A stretch of 64,000 nt of DNA from Phycisphaerales bacterium Planc_01. GTDB taxonomy: Bacteria; Planctomycetota; Phycisphaerae; Sedimentisphaerales; Anaerobacaceae. The translations under genes were made by a program, and so were the position numbers. Position 1 is the stretch's first letter; each line of letters starts with the position of its first letter. Positions 7,084 to 56,982 of this stretch are shown here, piece by piece. The notes below the pieces were generated by a model. That model saw nothing but the letters and a program-made list of their open reading frames with translations, ran no database searches and was not told the origin of the DNA. The stretch covers positions 1 to 64,000 of the forward strand of contig LVBB01000121.1 in assembly GCA_001603075.1 (NCBI GenBank), read 5' to 3'.

Positions 7084-8861
7084 GATCGGCTCCTTTCAAG
7101 GACGTCGGTCAACTGCGTCACCAGGGCCTGTTCCTGCCGCTCGGAGAGGTTCAGCATCTCCCGCAAAGCGATGGCGACGTGAGGAATGTATTTCTGGATA
7201 TACGCTTTCTTCTTCTCCGACTCGGCCGCCTTGCGCCGCCGACGGATGAACACCGCAAGCCGCCGGCCGCACTCCTGCAGCGCCAGGCGGACCTCTTTGA
7301 TGATCTCCGGATAATGCGCCACCGCCTCCTTGCTCTCGCTGGTGAACGGTACCCAGACCGACGCCATGTGCACCAAAACGATCAGCGGCCCCGACGGCAG
7401 AGCACCGTTGGACTGCTGAAGGGCGTAATTACGCCAGTCCGTCGAGATCACCGATTTGGTCATCGCGCAGGCCGACTGCTGGTAAAGCAGCGGCACACGA
7501 TTGGCATAGCGCAGCACCCGCGCGAGCCCATCGGCCTGGAGTGAGCCGCCGTAGGCGAGCCCGGCCTCGATCTGAAACGGATTGCCGCGATACACAGAGG
7601 GCGGCCGCGTCACGGCGGTGTAGAAATCAGCCTCGATCTGCGTCTTGAGGCCCGCGAGGATCAGCTCCTCGCCGATCGGGCTGAGGCAGTCGGTCGGCGG
7701 GTTCATGATCTTCGTGCGGTTGATCGCCTTGAAGAGGTTGTCGGCCTCCTGGCGGGCGATCCGCGACGGCCGGGCCCGCTCGTAGAGCTTGGCCGCATCG
7801 CAAATCTCCTTGGCGACGCGCATGCTGACGCGCGAGAAATCGGTATGCAGGAACGACTGGAGCGTTTGCGCCTTGGTGTCGTGGAGCATCTTGATGAGCA
7901 CGCCCAGTTCAACGCCATAGGGGTGCGGCTTGATCTCTCGCGTCTCGGCCGGCAACTGATCCGTGGCCCGCTTGTAGTCCTTCACCTCGCCTTCGGGCGT
8001 GACGAACTGGAGCGAGACGTGCGGGTTGGCAATCGCCGTCTGTTCGAGATATTCCTCCACCGACTGGCGGCCCTTCTGGTACTTGGCCTCCAGCTCGATC
8101 TCAACTCGGGTGCCGCGATCGACGGGCCAGTCGATCGTCTCGTCGACGATGATTCGCGGCTCGTTCTTCTTGGTGTCGATTTCCAGCTCATAGTGGTGGG
8201 CCGGCTTGTTGCGGCTGGTCTTCGACGTGATGGAAACCGGCTTGCCCGTGGTGAGCTGGCCGTACATGCCGGCCGCCGAAATGCCGATCCCCTGCTGGCC
8301 CCGGGACATCTTGAGCCGGTGGAACTTCGAGCCGTACAGCAGCTTCGCGAAGATCTTCGGGATCTGGGCCTTGACGATGCCCGGGCCGTTGTCCTCGATC
8401 GTCACGCGAAAACGGTCCTCCTCCGAGCCGGGAGCAACCACCACCTTGACCTCCGGCAGAATGCCCGCCTCCTCGCAGGCGTCGAGAGAGTTGTCCACGC
8501 CCTCCTTGATCGTCGTCAGCAGCGCCTTTCGCGGGTTGTCGAAGCCGAGCAGATGGCGGTTCTTGGTGAAGAACTCGGCCACCGAGATCTCGCGCTGCCC
8601 TCGCGCCATATCCTCAGCGGTCGCATGTCGGCTCGGCCGCTTCGTCGCTGGTCGCGCGTCGCTCGGGACGTGTGGTTCAGGCAACGGCGGCGGTGGGACC
8701 GCTTCGATCGGCGCCTTCTTGCTCTTGCGAACTGCCGTCTTCGCCGCTTTCCTGGCGGTCTTCTTCACCGTCTCTTTGACGGCCTTGCCTGGGGCCTTCT
8801 TCTGCTTCGCATGAACCGCCCTGCTCTTCGCCCCGGCGGCCTTCTTCCTGGCGTTTCCCAT
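7080..8861 (-). CDS. top6B: DNA topoisomerase VI subunit B (GHKL ATPase)
   Basis: The 593-residue protein carries the GHKL ATP site: an N-box with Glu120 and Asn124 ([10 protein letters not shown]), EDNGPGI (156-162) and the ATP lid [11 protein letters not shown] (188-198). The H2TH and transducer regions follow. It dimerises on ATP and drives strand passage with subunit A. About 55 N-terminal residues form a lysine/alanine-rich tail like a histone H1 C-terminus, then a proline-rich hinge, before the conserved core starts near residue 85. That tail is absent from the archaeal enzymes I know and probably binds DNA non-specifically. AGGAAGGGAATGG precedes the ATG. Confidence 0.93.
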
Positions 8862-11025: not shown

Positions 11026-12288
11026 TTACGGTTGCTTGCGTTCTTGTGAACGGACTTGGCGGGCGTAGGTTTCCTTCATGGCCAGCGTGCACGCCAGGGC
11101 CAGGACCGACGCGATCAGAAGCACCAGGAGGACGACGCGGTAGCCGGCGACGGAGTACCCGGTGTCGAGCGTGTGGGGATAGCCGTCGAGGATCCGGCCG
11201 AGCAGCCACATGAACACCGCCCCGCCGAAGAACGGAAACAGGTTCACCATGCCGACGCAGGTGCCCGCCATCGCGACGGGAAACAACTCTTTCGTCGTGG
11301 TGAACCCCATGATGACGATTGCGGACGAGCACACCGAGAACAGGAAGAACCACACGAAGAGCGCCCATTGCGGCAGGCTCGCAGGCAGCGCGACCACCAG
11401 CAGCAGGAGCAACGCAAGGGCCGCCGAGGCGAGAATGAAGACCCGCTTGCGGCTGCGGAGTCTCTCGGAGAGCACTCCCAGCAGCGGACTGCCGACGATC
11501 ATGCCCCAGGCGATCATGCTCAGGACCGCTCCGGCCTGGCCTTTGCTCATGCCATAGACGTGCATGAGGTACGGGCCGCCCCAGAGGCCGCCGAAGCCGA
11601 AGAAGATGCCGCAATCGAAGAAGAACCAGACGGCGACCGGCCAGAAATGCCTCGTGGAGACCACGCGGCGCGCCCCGGCCAGTAGACCGATCGCATCCGA
11701 CTGGGCGACCGGTGAATCGGCACTGTCGGCGGGCCGGTCGCGGACGACGAGCCAGGCCAAAGCCATGAGAACCACCGTCACCCCTCCAATGACCTGGAAC
11801 GAGACGCGCCAGCCGAAGCAGGTGGCCAGCAGGCCCAGGAGCCACGTTCCCGCCAGCACACCGGCCCCTCCCACGGCGTTGAGGATGCCGGCCATCACGG
11901 CGAACTCGCCGGCCCGGAACCACTGCGAGAGGATCTTCATCGTGGGAATGAAGACCATCGAGACGCCCAGACCGACCATCACGCGCGCGACGAAGGCCGT
12001 TCGGATGCCCGGCGCCAGACCGAACAGCACGCTGCCGACCGCCGCGAGCAACAGAGAGACGGTGACGGTCTTCCTCGGCCCCACGGAGTCGGACAAGAGC
12101 CCCGCGGGAAACTGCATAGCCGCATAGCAGTAGAAGTACACCGAGCCGAGCAGACCCAGAACGCCGGCCGCGACGCCAAAATCGCTCGCCAGATCGTCGG
12201 CCACGACGGAAAGCGAAAGACGGTGAAAGTACACGAAGAAGTAGGCCAAGGCCAGCACGGAGAAGATCGCCCAGCGCAAGACACTCAT
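11026..12288 (-). CDS. MFS transporter (organic anion / hexuronate type)
   Basis: The 420-residue protein has 12 predicted membrane segments in two halves joined by a hydrophilic loop (DRPADSADSP). The MFS signature lies after helix 2 (GLLSDSVGPRKT), with FVARVMVGLGVSMVFIPTMK in helix 4. The overall pattern is that of the ACS/GlpT-like group that imports hexuronates, glycerol phosphate or other organic anions. It is the last gene of a minus-strand operon, 55 bases after the epimerase/ceramidase-like fusion, and probably imports the substrate of that operon. The ATG at 12288 is taken because the transmembrane pattern begins directly after it; no strong ribosome site separates candidate starts. 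Confidence 0.85.
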   Translation of the reverse strand: MSVLRWAIFSVLALAYFFVYFHRLSLSVVADDLASDFGVAAGVLGLLGSVYFYCYAAMQFPAGLLSDSVGPRKTVTVSLLLAAVGSVLFGLAPGIRTAFVARVMVGLGVSMVFIPTMKILSQWFRAGEFAVMAGILNAVGGAGVLAGTWLLGLLATCFGWRVSFQVIGGVTVVLMALAWLVVRDRPADSADSPVAQSDAIGLLAGARRVVSTRHFWPVAVWFFFDCGIFFGFGGLWGGPYLMHVYGMSKGQAGAVLSMIAWGMIVGSPLLGVLSERLRSRKRVFILASAALALLLLLVVALPASLPQWALFVWFFLFSVCSSAIVIMGFTTTKELFPVAMAGTCVGMVNLFPFFGGAVFMWLLGRILDGYPHTLDTGYSVAGYRVVLLVLLIASVLALACTLAMKETYARQVRSQERKQP

Positions 12289-17189: not shown

Positions 17190-19334
17190 TCATCGCGATC
17201 CGCCTCCGGCGGAGACGGTCAGTTCGCCGTCTGCGTTCAATTGGATTCGGTCTTCGGAAGGCCCCCGCTCGACCACAACGACGAAAGAGTCGTCCTCCTG
17301 GATCGATCGGATGCCCGTGACCGTCGGCCGGGCGCCGGCGGGAACGGGTTCGAGTACGGCCGCGTAGTAGACGTCGCGACCGTGCCGGCCGATCATGGCC
17401 AGGGGAACGCGATCCGTCACCGAAGCGCCGACCCCATCGCCGAGCACCACAACGGTCTGCTGCTGCGCCGCCAATGTCAGATGTGTGGTCACAGCCGCAT
17501 CTTCAAACCGGATGCGAACCACGTCGTCGGTCGGGCCGGCGAGCACGTTCTGGATGTACTCGCCGCCCGGAAGATCCACCGTCCGTCCGCTGCCGTCGAC
17601 GATGGCGTCGCAGACCGCCCTGGCTGCCCGGTTGTGATAGAGCCAGTCAAATCGTCGGTCCTGGTCGGCACGGAGACCGTCGAGGACCACAAGATAGGCC
17701 TCGGTCATCACCAGCAGCCGGTCGTGCACGACGCCGGGATAGGCTTCATCGCAGCGCGCCCCGGCCGCCACGAAGCCGTCGCCCTGCTCAAACGACATCA
17801 GTTCACCGGCAGCCGGCGCCTGGCTGCGTCCATCGACCAGAACGGCGTTGTGCCCGATGGTGGCCTTGTACCAGTTGGCATGGATGGGCAGGCGATACGC
17901 CTGGCTGCCGGCCCGACCGGGATCGACGCCGAGTTCCCTGCCGTAGCCGTAGAAAACGAAGCTCAGCTTGTCGAAGTGTCCGTGGAACCCGCCGTAGGGA
18001 CCGAAGGTCATGGCTGCCGTCAGTCCCGCCGGACCGCCCATCCGCAGAATCGCGTGGCCCGCATCCTCGAAGACGTTGCTTTCCAGAACCGGGGACTCGG
18101 CGACAATCCCCGCTGGCCGTCCCAGAAGAACGCTCTCGAAGCTCGGCTCGCTGCGCAGCATCGCCAGAATTCGTCCGTCGCGGTAGGCATGATAGGCCGG
18201 CTCCAACAGCGATCCGACGTTTCGGACGGAGGAATTCACATCGTCGCCGAATCGGGGGAGCATTCCATCGGCCATCGTGTATTCGATCGGCAGCGTAAAC
18301 ATCCTCTTCAATCGCGCGTCGCCCCAGAGGTCGATGCCCAACCGTCGAGAGGTCTGGGCCATATCGACCAGGGCTCCGAGCGTATAGAAGTGATAGCCCC
18401 AACTGTTTTCGTACCACATCCCCTCCCGCGAGACGGAAATGTCCATCTGGCGATAGAACCCGTTCTCCGGATCGGCGATGGCCTTGCGGATCCAGCCCGG
18501 CTCGCCGAGCAGCGCGCCGCCCCAGACCATGGCGGCGTTGTGCCACGTCTGCCAGTTGCTCTTGCCCGCCTTGTTCCGATCGAGGTTCTCCAACATAGGC
18601 CGCAGCAGTCCCTCTTTGATTTTGCGATGGTCCTCCGCCGAGAGCACGCCGGAATCGCCGATCAGATCGTACGCGGGCCCGATGGACGTCGCCAGGGCGG
18701 CCGCTTCGGTAAGCGTCTGCTCATAGAGGTGGCCCCCCGCTTTCCTGCCCCAGGTGCTTTCCGTCTCGAGAGAGGCACTGTGATAGGGATACGCACGATA
18801 TCGTTGGGCGTAGCCCAGGAGCACCTTCGCGGCGTATTCGGCGAACTCCCTTCGGCCCGAGATCGCATAGGCCCAGGCAGCGGTCTCCATCTGCCGAAGG
18901 TTGCGCCCGTGCTGGCGGCCGAAGACCACGTCGTCGTACGGAGGCCCCGAATACACCGTCTCGCACTTGGGACATTGATGACGGGTCGGGTCGATGGTGC
19001 GCAGGCCCGTCTCGCATCGTTCGCACTGATACCACTGGTTGTGCTGGCCGCCGCGAGGCGGGAAATCGATCGGCTCGCCGACGAATCGCTCGGCTTCTCT
19101 GACGCGGGCCGCCACGACGTCGCGTGCGGCCCCATCGCCTTGATAGGCCTGACGCAACCGCTGCAACTCGTCAACCGTACAGGCCAGGTAAGGATGCCTG
19201 ACATCAGGCAAAGAGACCTGCACCTCGCGTTCGATGCCGGCACCGGCGAGACGGGCCGGCATGACCATGAAAACAAGACTGAAGAACAGATACGAACGGC
19301 GGATGAGATGGATGCGGGCTTCTCTGGAACGCAT
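17190..19334 (-). CDS. Secreted heparinase II/III-like polysaccharide lyase
   Basis: The ATG at 19334 has an ideal GAAGGAGG and begins a 714-residue secreted protein (signal RRSYLFFSLVFMVMPARLAGAG). An N-terminal alpha/alpha toroid contains VYSGPPYDDVVFGRQHG and NSWGYHFYTLGALV. The C-terminal heparinase II/III-like sheet domain starts around GGPAGLTAAMTFGPYGGFHGHFDKLSF, in which the histidines are likely catalytic. Near residue 115 there is a C-x2-C-x13-C-x2-C pair (CERC...CPKC) suggesting a structural zinc site. The last residues SAGGGSR are encoded by a TCCGCC/GGCGGA palindrome (17199-17213) of the local repeat family. The substrate is probably an acidic or sulfated glycan. Confidence 0.85.
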   Translation of the reverse strand: MRSREARIHLIRRSYLFFSLVFMVMPARLAGAGIEREVQVSLPDVRHPYLACTVDELQRLRQAYQGDGAARDVVAARVREAERFVGEPIDFPPRGGQHNQWYQCERCETGLRTIDPTRHQCPKCETVYSGPPYDDVVFGRQHGRNLRQMETAAWAYAISGRREFAEYAAKVLLGYAQRYRAYPYHSASLETESTWGRKAGGHLYEQTLTEAAALATSIGPAYDLIGDSGVLSAEDHRKIKEGLLRPMLENLDRNKAGKSNWQTWHNAAMVWGGALLGEPGWIRKAIADPENGFYRQMDISVSREGMWYENSWGYHFYTLGALVDMAQTSRRLGIDLWGDARLKRMFTLPIEYTMADGMLPRFGDDVNSSVRNVGSLLEPAYHAYRDGRILAMLRSEPSFESVLLGRPAGIVAESPVLESNVFEDAGHAILRMGGPAGLTAAMTFGPYGGFHGHFDKLSFVFYGYGRELGVDPGRAGSQAYRLPIHANWYKATIGHNAVLVDGRSQAPAAGELMSFEQGDGFVAAGARCDEAYPGVVHDRLLVMTEAYLVVLDGLRADQDRRFDWLYHNRAARAVCDAIVDGSGRTVDLPGGEYIQNVLAGPTDDVVRIRFEDAAVTTHLTLAAQQQTVVVLGDGVGASVTDRVPLAMIGRHGRDVYYAAVLEPVPAGARPTVTGIRSIQEDDSFVVVVERGPSEDRIQLNADGELTVSAGGGSR
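17199..17213. repeat. TCCGCC-palindrome at lyase C-terminus
   Basis: TCCGCC-TCC-GGCGGA forms a 6-base-pair hairpin preceded by GCGA. It encodes the penultimate residues of the heparinase-like gene, seven bases before its stop. Confidence 0.5.
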
Positions 19335-20622: not shown

Positions 20623-20651
20623 GGGCGATCCGCCTTTGGCGGACATCGCCC
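20619..20651 (+). repeat. Palindromic repeat, TCCGCC core (copy 1)
   Basis: GTAGGGGCGA, then the hairpin TCCGCC-TTT-GGCGGA, then CATCGCCC. The outer GGGCGA/TCGCCC and inner TCCGCC/GGCGGA arms pair as one long stem. The first arm contains the dinB stop codon. Confidence 0.75.
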
Positions 20652-20660
20652 GGTCGCCGA

Positions 20661-21629
20661 TCAGGCGAAAGACAATCCTATGGCGCGTCCAACGGAGCGA
20701 ATGTGCTCGGCTGCCTGTCGATATTCCTCGGCGTTGGGCAGATGTTCGAGCATCAGCGGCACGCCGGGCAGCTTGCTCAGCTCGCGCAGGAATGTCGCAT
20801 AGTCCAACTCGCCCTGGCCCGGCCGCACCTCGTCGAGATGGGTCATCAGCTTCGGGTGCAGGTAGATGTCTTTGGCGTGGCAACTCTTGATATACGGCCC
20901 GAGCTTCTCGAAGCACTCGGCAATCAGTTTGCCGTTGGAGTAGTACCGCTGCGGACTGCACACCAGATTCACCGGGTCCAGATGCACCGCGAAGCGGTCG
21001 CGGTCGATCGCCCGGATCAGACGAACGTAGGAATCCGCCGAGTCGGGATAGGCCCACGGCATCGTTTCCAGCGTGAACCACGTCCGCATGGGTTGGACGT
21101 CGTCGATGATCCCACGCGTCGTCTCGACGATCATCTCGAAGGTCTCTTCGGTGAAGTTCTCGGCGGCGGGACCGTCCCACTGCGTCCCGCGCGAGCCGCT
21201 GATGTTCACGCAGCAGCGGGCACCGATGCGGTCGGCCAGGGCCAGTTGCCGGCGACAGGTCTCCAGAGCAGCCTTGCGCTTCTCGTCGTCGGGACTGATC
21301 GGATTGCTCCAGGCCCCCACCTCTGCAATGATGATGTCGGCCTTCTGCGCGGCCTGCTCGTAGGCCCGCACCACGTCGTCAGCCGCCTCGGCGCCGATGG
21401 GACAGTAGGCGGCGCTGTAGCCCAGCTTCCGGACGGCCCGGGCCCAGCCGTCGGGGTCCTGGTATTTGTCGAAGACCGGCCCGCCAAGCCGCAGTTTGCC
21501 GCGTGCCTGCAGGGGCGATGCATGCATCGCCCCACGAACCGGCGATCCCAAACCCAGCGAGGCGACCGCCGCCCCCGCCAGAGATGTCTTCAGAAAACTC
21601 CGTCGTGATTGTCTGTGGCTGGCGTCCAT
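20661..21629 (-). CDS. Tat-exported sugar-phosphate isomerase/epimerase-like protein
   Basis: The 322-residue product has a twin-arginine signal (SRRSFLKTSLAGAAVASLG, from residue 8) and an AP-endonuclease-2-type TIM barrel. Characteristic segments are GYSAAYCPIG, IIIAEVGAWSNP, VHLDPVNLV, YIKSCHAKDIYL and VPLMLEHLP, the last holding a probable metal-binding glutamate. The peptide RGAMHASPLQARG (about residues 32-44) is encoded by a perfect 22-base palindrome and looks like an in-frame repeat insertion between signal and barrel. The substrate is unknown; a xylose-isomerase-like reaction on a free sugar is likelier than on a sugar phosphate given its export. Confidence 0.85.
   Translation of the reverse strand: MDASHRQSRRSFLKTSLAGAAVASLGLGSPVRGAMHASPLQARGKLRLGGPVFDKYQDPDGWARAVRKLGYSAAYCPIGAEAADDVVRAYEQAAQKADIIIAEVGAWSNPISPDDEKRKAALETCRRQLALADRIGARCCVNISGSRGTQWDGPAAENFTEETFEMIVETTRGIIDDVQPMRTWFTLETMPWAYPDSADSYVRLIRAIDRDRFAVHLDPVNLVCSPQRYYSNGKLIAECFEKLGPYIKSCHAKDIYLHPKLMTHLDEVRPGQGELDYATFLRELSKLPGVPLMLEHLPNAEEYRQAAEHIRSVGRAIGLSFA
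21512..21533. repeat. Palindromic repeat, ATGCAT core, inside a gene
   Basis: GGGGCGATGCA followed at once by TGCATCGCCCC is a perfect palindrome with 11-base arms. It shares the GGGGCGA outer arm of the family and encodes GAMHASP in the epimerase-like protein. Confidence 0.75.
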
Positions 21630-21685: not shown

Positions 21686-21723
21686 GGGGACGAATCACTC
21701 CGCCAGAGGCGGATCGCCCCTAC
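21686..21723 (-). repeat. Palindromic repeat, TCCGCC core (copy 2, inverted)
   Basis: Read on the minus strand it is GTAGGGGCGA, the core TCCGCC-TCT-GGCGGA, then GTGATTCGTCCCC. It is nearly identical to copy 3 in the opposite orientation. Confidence 0.75.
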
Positions 21724-21750
21724 TTTAACCCCATTGCGGCTTGCCGACAA

Positions 21751-21765
21751 TCCGCCTCTGGCGGA
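21751..21765. repeat. TCCGCC core without outer arms
   Basis: TCCGCC-TCT-GGCGGA, identical to the core of copy 2, lies between copy 2 and the promoter of the downstream gene. The GTAGGGG arms are missing. Confidence 0.5.
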
Positions 21766-21777
21766 CTGAGTTCCGGC

Positions 21778-21806
21778 TTGACGCGACGGCGGGGGCATGG
21801 TATCCT
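21778..21806 (+). promoter_or_regulatory. Promoter of the large secreted protein gene
   Basis: TTGACG (21778-21783), 17 bases and TATCCT (21801-21806). The predicted leader of about 200 bases contains palindrome copy 3. Confidence 0.5.
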
Positions 21807-21932
21807 AATCTACTGTACAGAGCCGGGAACACGTCATGCGTCGATGCCCGGAACCGATTCGGCCGACACCCTCCCGGCGATACGAACGCCAAGCCACTGC
21901 GTTTTTCGGAGAAGGAAGCCTGCATTATCAGC

Positions 21933-21968
21933 GTAGGGGCGATCCGCCTGGGGCGGAGCGATTCGCCC
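21933..21968 (+). repeat. Palindromic repeat, TCCGCC core (copy 3)
   Basis: GTAGGGGCGA, the core TCCGCC-TGG-GGCGGA, then GCGATTCGCCC. It lies in the predicted 5' leader of the gene at 22014, where it would form a strong hairpin about 45 bases before the start codon. Confidence 0.75.
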
Positions 21969-22013
21969 GTTCCATCTATCTATCGCCATCATGTGAAGAG
22001 GAGGGTTGCCAGC

Positions 22014-24851
22014 ATGACCGCCAGACTGATCCGTTCCACAGCCGTCGTACTGCTGCTGATTGCCGCTCAGGGGGTCCAGGGCGTCTACTTCGAGCTGCTG
22101 CCGACCTACGACACCTACGTCAGCAACGATCCAACGGAAGGCCCCGGCACGAATCATGAGACCGGCTCGGGCATGCACGTGCGCGACGTGGCCGACCGAC
22201 GCCGCGTCGGATACCTGACGTACGACCTGACGGAGGCCAGAACGCAGGGCGCCTTCTTCTCCAACGTGAGCTTCAGCAACTACGGCCACGACACCGGGAC
22301 GATCCACGTTTACGGCATCCTCGAAAGCCAGGAGGCCCTCGTCGCCGAAGGCCTGACGTGGAACAACGCACCGGGTGTGATGAACAACCCCACGCCGGCG
22401 GCGAACGCGCCGGTGGCGCTGGACTTCGCCGATCTGACCGACGTGCTCCTGACGTTCTCGGCGCCCGCACGAGGAACGCGGGCGGCGACGGAAACCAGCG
22501 AGGCCCTGGCCGACTTTCTCAACAGCGACACCAACGGGTTTGTGGCCTTCCTGTTCGCTCCGGCCGAGGGTGGCAATGCGATCCTTCGGACCGTTGAGAT
22601 GGGCGCCGAGGGCGGGACGCTGCTGGCGTTCGAGATCGGCGGCCGCGCTACGGCGGCCCGCGACCCCGACCCGGAAGACGGCGCAACGGACGTCTACCGT
22701 GACGCCGAACTGAGTTGGACCCCGGGAGGGTATGCCGGGGCGCACGACGTGTACTTTGGGACCGATTTCGGCGACGTCAACGACGCCGATCGCGCTGATC
22801 CGAGAGGCGCGCTCGTCAGCCAAGGCCAGGAGGCCTCCCTCTACAATCCCGGCCGGCTCGAACTGGGCCAGACCTACTACTGGCGGATCGACGAGGTCAA
22901 CGCGACGCCCGACGCCACGATCTTCAAAGGCTTCGTGTGGAGCTTCACGACCGAGCCGCTGGCCTATGCCATCGAGAACATCACCGTCAGGAGCAATGGG
23001 GTGTCGGATGAAGGACTGGGACCGGAGAACACGATCAACCGCTCCGGACTCAACAACGACGATCAGCATTCGGTCGACCCCATGGCGATGTGGCTGGCAA
23101 CCCCCGACGGCGAGGACCCCATCTGGATTCGATACGAGTTCGATCGCGTCTACCGACTGCACGAGATGTGGGTCTGGAACTACAATGTCCTTTTCGAGAC
23201 GGTGCTCGGCTACGGCCTCAAGGACGTCACGATCGAGGTTTCCATCGACGGAGTCGATTGGACTGTCTTTGGCGACGTCGAATTCGTCAAGGCAACGGCG
23301 AAAGTGAATTACAGCCACGACACCACCGTGGCACTCGACGGCGTCGCGGCCCGATTCGTCCGGCTGACCGTCAACAGCGGCTGGGGATCGCTGGGGCACT
23401 ACGGCCTCAGCGAAGTGCGATTCCTTCACGTCCCGGCGTTCGCCCGAGCACCGCAGCCGGCGGACGGGCAGACCGGAGTGTCGCCGGATACCATGCTTCA
23501 CTGGCGGGCCGGCCGCAACGCCGACCTCCACCACGTCTACCTCGGCACCGATCCGGAGGCCCTGGCCTTAATCGCTACGGTCGCGCAGGACTCCGCCGCA
23601 GGCGGACCGGCCGGTCTGGAATTCGGAACCACGTACTACTGGCGGATCGACGAGGTCAATGAGGCCGAGGCGGTCGGCGTCTGGCAGAGCGATCTGTGGA
23701 GCTTCGCCACGCACGAGTACCAACGGATCGACGGCTTCGAAAGCTATACGGACGATATTGACGCCGGCGAGGCAATCTTCGACACATGGCTCGACGGCTG
23801 GGTCAACAACACCGGCTCGACCGTCGGGTATCTCGAAGCGCCGTTCGCCGAGCGAACCATCGTCCGCAGCGGCGCGCAGTCCATGCCGCTGGCCTACGAC
23901 AACAGCAACTCGCCCTGGTACTCGGAGGCCAGACGGATCTTCGACACGCCGCAGAACTGGGCGGTCTTCGGCGCCCAGACGCTGGTGGTCTACTTCCAGG
24001 GCCGTCCCAGTCCCTTCGTCGAACTGGCCTCGGGCCATATCGTGATGGGCGCGGCCGGCGCGGACATCTGGAACGCGGCCGATGAATTCCGCTTCGGCTA
24101 CAAGAGCCTGGCCGGCGACGGCTCGATCGTCGCACGCGTCGAGAGCCTGACGAACACGCACGAATGGGCCAAGGCCGGCGTCATGATCCGCCAGACGCTG
24201 GAGCCGGGCTCGGCATTCGCGGCGGTGTATCTGACACCCGGCAACGGCTGCCGCTATCAGGGGCGTCTGACGGCCGGCGCCGCCGCCGTCAGCGACACGG
24301 ACGTGGCGACCGCCGAGCAGATCGCAATGGCGGCGCCCTATTGGGTCAAGCTCGAACGCACGGGCAACACGTTCAACGGCTATTGCTCGGCCGATGGACA
24401 AAGCTGGACGGCGATGTCATGGAACCCGCAGACGATCACCATGAACGGCACCGTCTATATCGGCCTGGCAGTCACCAGCCACAACGCGGCGGCACTGGCC
24501 AGCGCGGAATTCTCAGGCGTCGCCACAACGGGCAACGTCACCGGCCCATGGGCGGTGCAGACCATCGGCCCCGAGCAGCCGGGGGGCAATTCGCCCGATA
24601 CGCTCTACGTAGCGGTGGAGGACACCGCCGGAAAGACGGCGGTCGCGCCCCATCCGGCCGGCGAGGCGGCAACCCTACTGGCCGGCTGGAACCAGTGGCG
24701 CATCTCCTTCGGCGACCTTGCCGGCGTCAGCCTGGACAGGGTCAAGTCGATGGCGATCGGCATCGGCGATCGGAACAACCCCAAGGCCGCGGGCACAGGG
24801 TGGATCTACGTCGACGACCTGGGTTTCGGAAAGCCGGCCGGCCCCGAATAG
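22014..24851 (+). CDS. Large secreted multidomain carbohydrate-binding protein
   Basis: The ATG at 22014, after GAGGAGGG, gives 945 residues with a signal peptide (about 1-23). A DNRLRE/CBM96-like sandwich (25-205) is followed by a fibronectin-like module, an F5/8-type discoidin module (from about 320, YAIENITVRSNGVSDEGLGP) and a second fibronectin-like module. The two fibronectin-like modules share the block TYYWRIDEVN. The C-terminal module starts GFESYTDD and ends IYVDDLGF. It is interrupted by about 160 residues that look like a DUF1349-type domain (KAGVMIRQTLEPGSAFA). No catalytic domain is visible; glycan binding at the cell surface is inferred. Confidence 0.8.
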   Translation: MTARLIRSTAVVLLLIAAQGVQGVYFELLPTYDTYVSNDPTEGPGTNHETGSGMHVRDVADRRRVGYLTYDLTEARTQGAFFSNVSFSNYGHDTGTIHVYGILESQEALVAEGLTWNNAPGVMNNPTPAANAPVALDFADLTDVLLTFSAPARGTRAATETSEALADFLNSDTNGFVAFLFAPAEGGNAILRTVEMGAEGGTLLAFEIGGRATAARDPDPEDGATDVYRDAELSWTPGGYAGAHDVYFGTDFGDVNDADRADPRGALVSQGQEASLYNPGRLELGQTYYWRIDEVNATPDATIFKGFVWSFTTEPLAYAIENITVRSNGVSDEGLGPENTINRSGLNNDDQHSVDPMAMWLATPDGEDPIWIRYEFDRVYRLHEMWVWNYNVLFETVLGYGLKDVTIEVSIDGVDWTVFGDVEFVKATAKVNYSHDTTVALDGVAARFVRLTVNSGWGSLGHYGLSEVRFLHVPAFARAPQPADGQTGVSPDTMLHWRAGRNADLHHVYLGTDPEALALIATVAQDSAAGGPAGLEFGTTYYWRIDEVNEAEAVGVWQSDLWSFATHEYQRIDGFESYTDDIDAGEAIFDTWLDGWVNNTGSTVGYLEAPFAERTIVRSGAQSMPLAYDNSNSPWYSEARRIFDTPQNWAVFGAQTLVVYFQGRPSPFVELASGHIVMGAAGADIWNAADEFRFGYKSLAGDGSIVARVESLTNTHEWAKAGVMIRQTLEPGSAFAAVYLTPGNGCRYQGRLTAGAAAVSDTDVATAEQIAMAAPYWVKLERTGNTFNGYCSADGQSWTAMSWNPQTITMNGTVYIGLAVTSHNAAALASAEFSGVATTGNVTGPWAVQTIGPEQPGGNSPDTLYVAVEDTAGKTAVAPHPAGEAATLLAGWNQWRISFGDLAGVSLDRVKSMAIGIGDRNNPKAAGTGWIYVDDLGFGKPAGPE
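23592..23606. repeat. TCCGCC core inside the secreted-protein gene
   Basis: TCCGCC-GCA-GGCGGA encodes SAAGG in a variable loop of the second fibronectin-like module. It may be a repeat remnant or chance in GC-rich code. Confidence 0.3.
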
Positions 24852-25052: not shown

Positions 25053-26936
25053 ATGAGACTGCGTACCCTCCATGTGAAGAATTTCCGCTGCGTCGAAGAT
25101 TCGACCGAGTTCACGATCTGTCCAGTCACCTGCCTGGTGGGCAAGAACGGCGCGGGCAAGACCAGCCTGCTCGAAGCGCTGTACAAGGTGAATCCGGACG
25201 TCCGCGAGTTGGGGGCATTCGACGTTCTCATGGAATACCCCCGAGCCCGCCGTCGTCAGTATCAGAAGTCTGCGGCGGGCAGACTGGACGAGCCGGACGA
25301 CGCCCTGATCACCACATGGGAACTGGAGGACCACGACGTCGCACGACTGGAAGAGGTCCTCGGCGCCGGAGCGGTCAAGAGCCGCGCCGTTGTGATACGC
25401 CAGGGCTACTATCCCGAGCGTCACTGGACCGGCGCTATCGGGGATTCTGGATGGCGGATTCCGGATGGCGGACTCGACGCGGCGCCCCAGTCCGCAATCC
25501 CAAGTCCGAACTCCGAAATCGGACAGATGGACGCATTTTTCGAGCGGCATGTGGGGCCCCTGCTGCCCAAGCTGCTGTACTTCTCCGAATGGCACATCAT
25601 GCAGGGTCGCATCTCGATCGACGCCCTGCTGCACCGCAAGCAGAAAGGTGAATTGACCGGGCCGGACCGCGTCTTTCTGGCCCTGCTGGAACTGGGCGGC
25701 ACCAGCGTCGAAGCGATCAGCCGCATCGAGCGGTCGGAGGAACTCATCGCCGACCTCGAAGACGCCGCCCGTCCCGTGACCGATGAGATCGGCCGCTTCT
25801 GGAGCCAGGAGCGCGACCTGAGGGTCAGCTTCCATCTGTATCCGGGCCGGCCGCAGGACCCCTCGCCGTTCGATCGCGGCCTGGTCTTCGAGACCCGCAT
25901 CGTCAACACGAAGACGAACATGTCGCTGAACTTCGAGGAACGCAGCACGGGATTCGTCTGGTTCTTCTCGTTTCTGGTCTGGTACTCCGATGTGCGAAGG
26001 CGTTGCGGCGACAACCTGCTGATCGTGCTGGACGATCCGGGGCTCGGTCTGCATGCCAAGGCCCAGTGGGACCTGATGCGGTATGTCACCGAGCGTCTGG
26101 CCCCGCACTACCAGATCATCTACACGACGCACTCGCCGTTCATGATCGACCCCGACCGGATGGCCTGGGTGCGGACGGTCGAAGACCTCTCGACACAGAC
26201 GCCAGTAGGGGCGACGCATGCGTCGCCCCCACCGGGCACGAAGGTGGGCGACGAGGTCCTCAGCACCGACCACGACACGCTCCTGCCGCTGCAGGCCTCG
26301 CTGGGCTACCGGATCATGCAGGACATGGCCGCCGGCAAGCGGCGACTGCTGGTCGAGAAGCCGGCCGACGTGATCTATCTGAACTGGTTCTCGGCTCGGC
26401 TGCATGAGAGCGGACGGCGCGGGCTCGACCCGGCCTGGACCATCATCCCATGCGGCGACCTGGTTCGTCTGGCCACGCTGGTCGGCCTGCTGGCCAACGA
26501 CCCGCGCGGCTTTGCGGTGCTGCTGAGCCTGTCGGAGCGCGACCCCGATGTGCTCAACCAGTCCGCCACAGGCGGATCGCGGATGCTCCAGTCGTGCCGG
26601 ACGTTTCCGCTGAGGCGGTATGCCCGGCCGGTCTCCAGCACGATCGAGGACCTGATCGGGCCCCCTGCCTATCCCGCCCTGGTTGACCTGTGCTACAGAC
26701 TGCCCCGCAAGCAACGGCTGGCCGCCACGATTGTAAATGCGGACGAAACACCGATTCTCAGAACCGTCACCGATCGTCTGGGCGACTGCCCGTCAGTGAC
26801 ACGGCCCTTCGATCCGATGCTGCCGGCCGAGTTCCTGCTCGGCATGGGCGGGCGAAAGGCACGCAAACTGCCCGGAATCCAGGAGGCCCTGTCCCGGTTC
26901 GAGAACCTGTTCGCCGACCTCAATACCAGTCTGTAG
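25053..26936 (+). CDS. Solitary OLD-like AAA/ABC-type ATPase with in-frame repeat insertions
   Basis: The 627-residue protein begins like RecF/OLD ATPases (LRTLHVKNFRCVED) with a Walker A motif GKNGAGKTS (30-38). Later come NLLIVLDDPGLGLH (Walker B and D-loop) and IIYTTHSPFMI (H-switch). The C-terminal part KRRLLVEKPADVIYLNWFSA resembles the start of an OLD TOPRIM domain, but the second acidic motif is replaced by VLLSLSERDPD, so nuclease activity is doubtful. No UvrD-like GajB partner or other defence gene is adjacent. Three tracts look inserted in frame: about residues 130-157, 385-397 and 503-509, each encoded by palindromic DNA. A role in DNA repair, anti-phage defence or housekeeping remains open. 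Confidence 0.75.
   Translation: MRLRTLHVKNFRCVEDSTEFTICPVTCLVGKNGAGKTSLLEALYKVNPDVRELGAFDVLMEYPRARRRQYQKSAAGRLDEPDDALITTWELEDHDVARLEEVLGAGAVKSRAVVIRQGYYPERHWTGAIGDSGWRIPDGGLDAAPQSAIPSPNSEIGQMDAFFERHVGPLLPKLLYFSEWHIMQGRISIDALLHRKQKGELTGPDRVFLALLELGGTSVEAISRIERSEELIADLEDAARPVTDEIGRFWSQERDLRVSFHLYPGRPQDPSPFDRGLVFETRIVNTKTNMSLNFEERSTGFVWFFSFLVWYSDVRRRCGDNLLIVLDDPGLGLHAKAQWDLMRYVTERLAPHYQIIYTTHSPFMIDPDRMAWVRTVEDLSTQTPVGATHASPPPGTKVGDEVLSTDHDTLLPLQASLGYRIMQDMAAGKRRLLVEKPADVIYLNWFSARLHESGRRGLDPAWTIIPCGDLVRLATLVGLLANDPRGFAVLLSLSERDPDVLNQSATGGSRMLQSCRTFPLRRYARPVSSTIEDLIGPPAYPALVDLCYRLPRKQRLAATIVNADETPILRTVTDRLGDCPSVTRPFDPMLPAEFLLGMGGRKARKLPGIQEALSRFENLFADLNTSL
25441..25522 (+). repeat. Composite direct/inverted repeat inside the ATPase gene
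   Basis: GATTCTGGATGGCGG is repeated as GATTCCGGATGGCGG 14 bases on. GGATGGCGGACT (25463-25474) pairs at 11 of 12 positions with AGTCCGCAATCC (25489-25500), and further ...AAGTCCGAACTCCGAAATCGG units follow. It encodes a low-complexity stretch ending PNSEIG. Confidence 0.55.
26205..26230 (+). repeat. Palindromic repeat, GCATGC core, inside the ATPase gene
   Basis: GTAGGGGCGACGCA is followed by TGCGTCGCCCC; the inner 22 bases (26208-26229) are a perfect palindrome. It encodes PVGATHASPP, close to the GAMHASP peptide of the epimerase-like protein. Confidence 0.8.
26562..26576. repeat. TCCGCC core inside the ATPase gene
   Basis: TCCGCC-ACA-GGCGGA is followed by TCGCGGA and encodes SATGGSR in the C-terminal domain. 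This is the third palindromic tract in this gene. Confidence 0.5.
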
Positions 26937-56954: not shown

Positions 56955-56982
56955 GTAGGGGCGAATAATCATTCGCCCCTAC
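56955..56982 (-). repeat. Palindromic repeat, AAT-AATC-ATT core (copy 2)
   Basis: GTAGGGGCGAAT, loop AATC, ATTCGCCCCTAC: a perfect 12-base-pair stem. It ends three bases from the stop codon of the minus-strand gene at 56986, so it could also act as a 3'-end hairpin for that mRNA. Confidence 0.85.

Follow-up and report, generated by a model that had tools for sequence, protein, structure and literature searches.

How do short palindromic repeats come to lie in frame within a protein gene? The question is raised by an ATPase gene in the window, by which we mean the first 64,000 nucleotides of contig LVBB01000121.1 of Phycisphaerales bacterium Planc_01. An initial annotation of this DNA had reported three palindromic insertions in the gene and compared them with the palindromic elements that invade proteins in Rickettsia. 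The three repeats are real and two of them are recent. They were present as described, with coordinates and residues corrected below, and they belong to three unrelated families of dispersed repeats that are very short and form hairpins, which we call F1, F2 and F3.

Three repeat sites in an OLD-like ATPase gene

The gene and its repeats are located as follows.

25053..26936, + strand: host gene, open reading frame of 627 aa for an OLD-like AAA_15/AAA_21 ATPase
25442..25476, + strand: site 1, first arm, five GGA-initial heptamers (GGATTCT-GGATGGC-GGATTCC-GGATGGC-GGACTCG)
25491..25522, + strand: site 1, second arm, facing heptamers (TCCGCAA-TCCCAAG-TCCGAAC-TCCGAAA-TCGG)
26205..26232, + strand: site 2, F1 repeat, 28-bp palindrome GTAGGGGCGACGCATGCGTCGCCCCCAC, residues 385-394
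26562..26576, + strand: site 3, F2 repeat TCCGCCACAGGCGGA, encoding SATGG, residues 504-508

The gene product matches the Pfam families AAA_15 (7.8e-22) and AAA_21 (2e-13), and its top PDB sequence match is 6p74, an OLD-family endonuclease (3.9e-12). The Walker motifs are intact, with GKNGAGKT and LLIVLDDPG conserved in the alignment, and together with the sequence match to OLD they place the protein in the OLD family. Orthologues were found in at least 10 relatives, comprising all five congeners examined and several genera of the same family. The full-length orthologues share 93 to 38% identity, and two more distant ones 24-25%. In the congener G004 the orthologue is interrupted by a single in-frame TGA, which may reflect decay of the gene or an error of assembly.

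Site 1 as a whole (25442-25522) consists of two facing period-7 runs of degenerate heptamers, the first of which was detected as a period-7 array on the minus strand at 25452. A coarse count of such heptamer arrays (F3) gave 5 strict arrays in 703 kb and 0 in shuffles. The second arm is shared with G001 and absent in G005, G002, G003, G004 and G029. At the position of the first arm, G001 has the F1-like sequence GCGACGCATGCATCGCCCCTAC instead, and F1 copies with GACGCATGCRTCGCCCCTAC are found at site 1 in G001 and G005 in two other reading frames (ATHASPL, GDACVAP). This loop is hypervariable, differing in length and content in every species. Because it is filled differently each time, one cannot speak of a single "insertion" at this site.

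The palindrome at site 2 contains a perfect palindrome of 22 bp, whose 11-bp arms were reached in 0/500 codon shuffles of the gene (mean maximum 5.7). The hairpin at site 3 has the loop TGT on the opposite strand. As about 0.8 hairpins of the 6+3+6 type are expected by chance in such a gene, site 3 owes its significance entirely to being one of the 91 copies in the genome. Both repeats are absent from 6/6 close relatives, which all have the same shorter length at these positions. The prediction that relatives should lack exactly these residues thus holds for sites 2 and 3, where the flanks match in orthologues of 71-93% identity, but not for site 1, which differs from species to species.

Site 2 has 28 bp in place of 19 nt in the relatives (+9), the only F1 replacement that was measured cleanly, and site 3 has 15 bp (SATGG) in place of 9 nt encoding REL (+6). 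Host bases were therefore overwritten (28 for 19, 15 for 9) and nothing was cleanly inserted. The statement that all repeats are multiples of three is correct for the net change relative to the relatives (+9, +6) but not for the length of the element, since F1 has 28 bp. All three sites are stop-free in frame, as had been noted.

Distribution of the repeat families

The F1 consensus is GTAGGGGCGA(N8)TCGCCCCTAC, a 28-bp palindrome. Its core occurs 35 times in the genome and the reversed control pattern 0 times. For the full exact version (GTAGGGGCG...CGCCCCTAC) there are 15 copies here (reversed control 0), up to 23 in congeners, 3 in G029 and 0 in the congener G004; the other 55 genomes searched contained none. 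F1 is thus a genus-restricted family, found in the congeners and with 3 copies in G029.

F2 was searched as TCCGCC-NNN-GGCGGA and has the 15-bp pattern TCCGCC-TNY-GGCGGA. This genome contains 91 copies, compared with 3 for the reversed-pattern control. There are 59 copies in G001 and G002, 19 in G005, 0 in G003 and 38 in G048, and some distant relatives have 165-178 (G044: 178). The spread over the phylum is patchy, and there are also matches in named planctomycetes and in other phyla, of which some single ones in GC-rich genomes may be due to chance. When 55 copies from this genome are oriented by their loop, T is found at the first loop position in 48/55 and C or T at the third in 50/55; the flanks are C-R-A and C. 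The complete genome of G044 uses almost only TNC loops (168 oriented copies). Loops of copies common to G001 sometimes differ, by transitions, and tail-to-tail pairs of F2 occur in some genomes.

Beyond the ATPase gene, the following copies in the window were compared with relatives or assigned to their surroundings.

17199..17213, + strand: F2 copy, absent in G002 (+9)
20629..20643, + strand: F2 copy, intergenic, after GTAGGGGCGA
21509..21536, + strand: F1-type palindrome (GATGCATGCATC core), absent in G005 and G002 (+21)
21699..21713, + strand: F2 copy, within the loop of an F1-type palindrome, which G001 still has in uninterrupted form
21751..21765, + strand: F2 copy, where G001 and G005 carry CCCTTGCCG
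21943..21957, + strand: F2 copy, within the loop of another F1-type palindrome, likewise uninterrupted in G001, whose ATG is replaced here
23592..23606, + strand: F2 copy in the neighbouring large gene (21741-24851), encoding SAAGG
56955..56982, + strand: F1 copy, perfect-ended 28 bp (GTAGGGGCGAATAATCATTCGCCCCTAC), intergenic, absent in G005

The copy at 23592..23606 replaces 9 nt (+6) that are present in G001 and G005. A scan of the window for indels of at least 6 bp relative to G001, G005 and G002 placed nearly all palindrome gains in this genome.

Several further F2 copies were seen in unusual surroundings. One (G000:C16:202843-202857; L095:2843-2857) is embedded in a tRNA-Asn-like fragment, roughly at the anticodon region, and some 300 bp separate it from an intact tRNA-Asn gene (L095:3163-3237); the arrangement in G001 is identical. 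About 18 copies with varied loops, some of them in genes, form a dense cluster of some 7 kb (G000:C16:286230-293005), and several of these copies recur in the corresponding contig C146 of G001. On contig C139 (L316:7556-7570 and 7841-7855), two F2-like hairpins with the loop GTC lie 285 bp apart and are probably a tandem duplication; there is a weak Y1_Tnp match a few hundred bases away. Copies in G044 are embedded in longer repeated contexts, e.g. GCTGCAAG-F2 and F2-CAGGCTC. An apparent strand bias of F2 in that genome proved to be an artefact of an incomplete match list. A literature search with the repeat sequences returned only unrelated primers.

Replacement of host bases

Mapping of 21 elements onto G001, G005 and G002, together with the window, yielded 15 F2 events with a clear empty allele, the coding ones having been pre-filtered by frame. 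The 15 bp of F2 replaced 6 bp in seven events (net change +9), 9 bp in two (+6), 3 bp in three (+12), 5 bp in two (+10) and 12 bp in one (+3). A clean insertion of 15 bp was found in 0/15 of these polarised events, and there was no target duplication at the replaced host segments. What is seen, with F1 at site 2 included, is the replacement of an unrelated host segment of 3-19 bp as a lineage-specific gain.

The flanks between which F2 lands resemble CGR and C, and the empty allele already has them. In the orientation given by the loop, a purine precedes the replaced segment at -1 in 15/15 events (p 6e-5), with C at -3 in 10/15 and C at +1 in 10/15 (p 0.006 each). Leaving out two non-independent pairs (73038/74082 and 21699/21943) gives p values of 2e-4 (-1), 0.03 (-3) and 0.006 (+1). 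Segment boundaries were taken from pairwise alignments, and where these are ambiguous, as for the events at 12076 and 290090, the flank preference could be modestly overstated. On each side the microhomology spans no more than 1-3 nt. Similarity of the replaced segments to F2 or its loop is no greater than for random or permuted loops. Microhomology inside the target and local template switching were considered and rejected, because the replaced segments are no more F2-like than expected by chance. The tendency of targets to form hairpins was not significant (p 0.10, or 0.25 without the two F1 loops).

Selection and position in the protein fold

Using a codon log-odds caller, we found 11/55 F2 copies (20%) and 3/16 F1 copies (19%) in coding sequence, compared with 67% of random positions; these figures come from a sample of 703 kb out of a genome of 5.65 Mb, some of it selected around F2 copies. 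For the genic depletion of F2, p is about 1e-12; if the dense cluster at C16:286-293 kb is left out, it is 1e-8. Among the coding copies of F2, eight are read as SAxGG, three as PPxA and none in the Arg-rich frame RxRR (p 0.012). The repeats are strongly purged from genes, and the survivors here keep the frame and avoid stops and the Arg-rich frame.

An AlphaFold model of the window protein stays below pLDDT 50 for 3 or more consecutive residues only at 129-151, 382-392 and 494-510. These are the three sites, and their low values partly reflect missing alignment support. The G002 orthologue, which is without the site 2 and 3 repeats, was also modelled. In it disorder is confined to the site 1 loop; site 2 corresponds to a beta-hairpin turn (strands 373-382 and 388-395) and site 3 to the junction of two short helices (495-499 and 501-507). 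The sites are thus predicted to be turns or loops of the ancestral fold and not merely poorly aligned inserts. The mapping onto a predicted structure that the initial annotation had proposed as a check supports its reading in this respect, with surviving copies modelled at turns or in a disordered loop.

Origin of the repeats

Our explanation is that three families of short hairpin repeats have spread through this genome and its congeners, overwriting bases as they did so, and have been sorted by selection; taken as a whole, we consider it slightly more probable than not. The repeat families, the replacement and the selection are borne out by the results above and are much firmer than the copying mechanism. 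For the latter, we infer microhomology-guided short-patch substitution, tentatively and at somewhat less than even odds, as the most likely mechanism. A single-stranded fragment containing a hairpin would use a few flanking bases to anneal at the replication fork, overwriting the bases in between, in a manner similar to SPDIR (short-patch double illegitimate recombination). A stable hairpin with a TNY loop would shield the donor strand or favour its selection. The repeats would not be aimed at proteins, and selection would do the sorting.

A more far-reaching possibility, which we regard as rather doubtful, is that F2 is a self-dispersing 15-bp DNA hairpin spreading among bacterial phyla through a dedicated process of patch replacement that recognises CGR...C and overwrites about six bases. 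If this were true, proteins would be edited in place and not interrupted. With 15 bp, F2 is smaller than any mobile element known to us.

It is unlikely, if a little less so than the remaining alternatives, that F1 and F2 are REP/REPIN-like elements moved by a trans-acting, RAYT-like Y1 (HUH) tyrosine transposase that works on a single-stranded hairpin. F1 has several traits of GTAG REPs (a 28-bp palindrome, the GTAG start, and 35 core and 15 full exact copies), its GTAG/CTAC ends are characteristic of REPs, and seven Y1_Tnp genes are present in the genome. The one-strand loop of F2 fits stable DNA triloops, and its tail-to-tail pairs would also be consistent with such a transposase. REPs within genes are documented (PMC3733652); according to the same paper, the tag of true GTAG REPs is unpaired, whereas the GTAG of perfect F1 copies pairs with the CTAC at the other end. 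Furthermore, F1 copies lie near 0/7 of the Y1_Tnp genes, so that the linked RAYT of a REPtron was not found; F2 lies near only one of them, with an atypical loop, and G048 has 38 F2 copies and no Y1_Tnp match. Host bases are lost at the insertion site, which Y1 transposition does not predict and which argues against simple transposition of this type.

A TNY-type loop fits a UNCG-type RNA tetraloop as well as a stable DNA triloop. F2 might accordingly be kept as a functional RNA hairpin (a C-UNYG-G tetraloop serving mRNA stability or as a protein-binding site) and have spread adaptively. The loop constraint, tightened nearly to TNC in a distant genome, and the mostly intergenic, often clustered copies would agree with this. 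On the other hand, both strands are used with no clear bias, copy numbers vary widely between sister species, and the loop rule suits the DNA triloop equally, all of which makes an RNA function quite improbable in our view.

The proposal of the initial annotation, a selfish element of the Rickettsia type (RPE) adapted to in-frame invasion of protein genes, is disfavoured and very improbable. The repeats are indeed in frame, stop-free, hairpin-forming, located in loops and absent from orthologues. But they are mostly intergenic, with a three- to four-fold depletion in genes, measure 15-28 bp, come from three unrelated families and overwrite host bases instead of being inserted. The coding copies use 2/3 frames, and the same loop holds different sequences in different species. 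They are genome-wide repeats filtered by selection and not protein-seeking elements like RPEs. Least credible of all, and likewise disfavoured, is local production of the palindromes by an assembly error or by template switching at quasipalindromes. Hairpins are known to arise by template switching, and some events lie inside existing ones (21699, 21943, 291163), but the replaced sequences are unlike F2, the hairpin stability of targets is not significant, several copies are common to independently assembled relatives, and the arms are identical across unrelated sites and must hence be imported.

Comparison with known repeat systems

The overwriting repeats that we propose share features with several known systems. 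SPDIR replaces host bases by short unrelated patches with microhomology at the edges, as is seen here; to our knowledge it involves no repeatedly recurring repeat family, in which F1 and F2 differ from it. The small dispersed repeats (SDR) of Nostoc, associated with Elhai in 2008, are reportedly hairpins of 21-27 nt that are nested in repeats or heptamer arrays, recently mobile and confined to a clade. F2 is likewise a short hairpin that has dispersed recently, with lineage-specific gains, and is nested in F1 loops. It differs from SDRs in having 15 and not 21-27 nt, in its TNY loop rule and in overwriting about 6 nt between CGR...C flanks. The RPEs of Rickettsia and Wolbachia are also hairpin repeats that are read through in frame within proteins and are absent from orthologues. 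RPE-1 is much longer (100-150 bp), and there are three unrelated short families here, which are depleted from genes (coding fraction 20% for F2 and 19% for F1).

REPIN/RAYT systems (Bertels and Rainey 2011, PMC3116915) consist of non-autonomous hairpin repeats in many copies, and so do the repeats described here, in which we found neither a REP doublet structure nor RAYT linkage. The GTAG/CGTC REPs are palindromes of 20-40 bp that occur genome-wide, mostly between genes and in some cases in frame within them (Di Nocera 2013, PMC3733652). The same paper already suggests flexible loops as tolerated sites and records these REPs in Planctomycetes. The repeats studied here are similarly short palindromes, genome-wide, mostly intergenic and sometimes in frame in genes. 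The differences from this account are the unpaired tag at one end of GTAG REPs, compared with the F1 tag that pairs with CTAC, the missing linked RAYT, the shorter and tagless F2, and the replacement of target bases, which the parts of PMC3733652 consulted do not describe. As in-frame REPs in flexible loops had been proposed earlier (PMC3733652), the broad idea of the initial annotation is not new. In-frame REPs were known, while the replacement signature and the size of 15 bp look new.

How short REP-like repeats enter new places is a long-open question. The congeners supply polarised before and after alleles at base resolution, and these point to overwriting with a flank preference and not to clean insertion. 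Such overwriting is a one-step route by which proteins gain and swap loop sequences. It also means that recurring peptides in the proteins of these bacteria (GATHASP, SAxGG) can be repeat debris and not a sign of function.

Turnover at other gene loops

Two further gene positions have F1 in this genome (C20:18041 and C16:339510). At the same spots, congeners carry quite different repeats, which include ATTGATGATTG-type arrays and an inverted repeat with GTGGCAGCCTCAAG. These gene loops look like hotspots of repeat turnover, and the swaps parallel those at site 1, which suggests that tolerant loops are refilled again and again.
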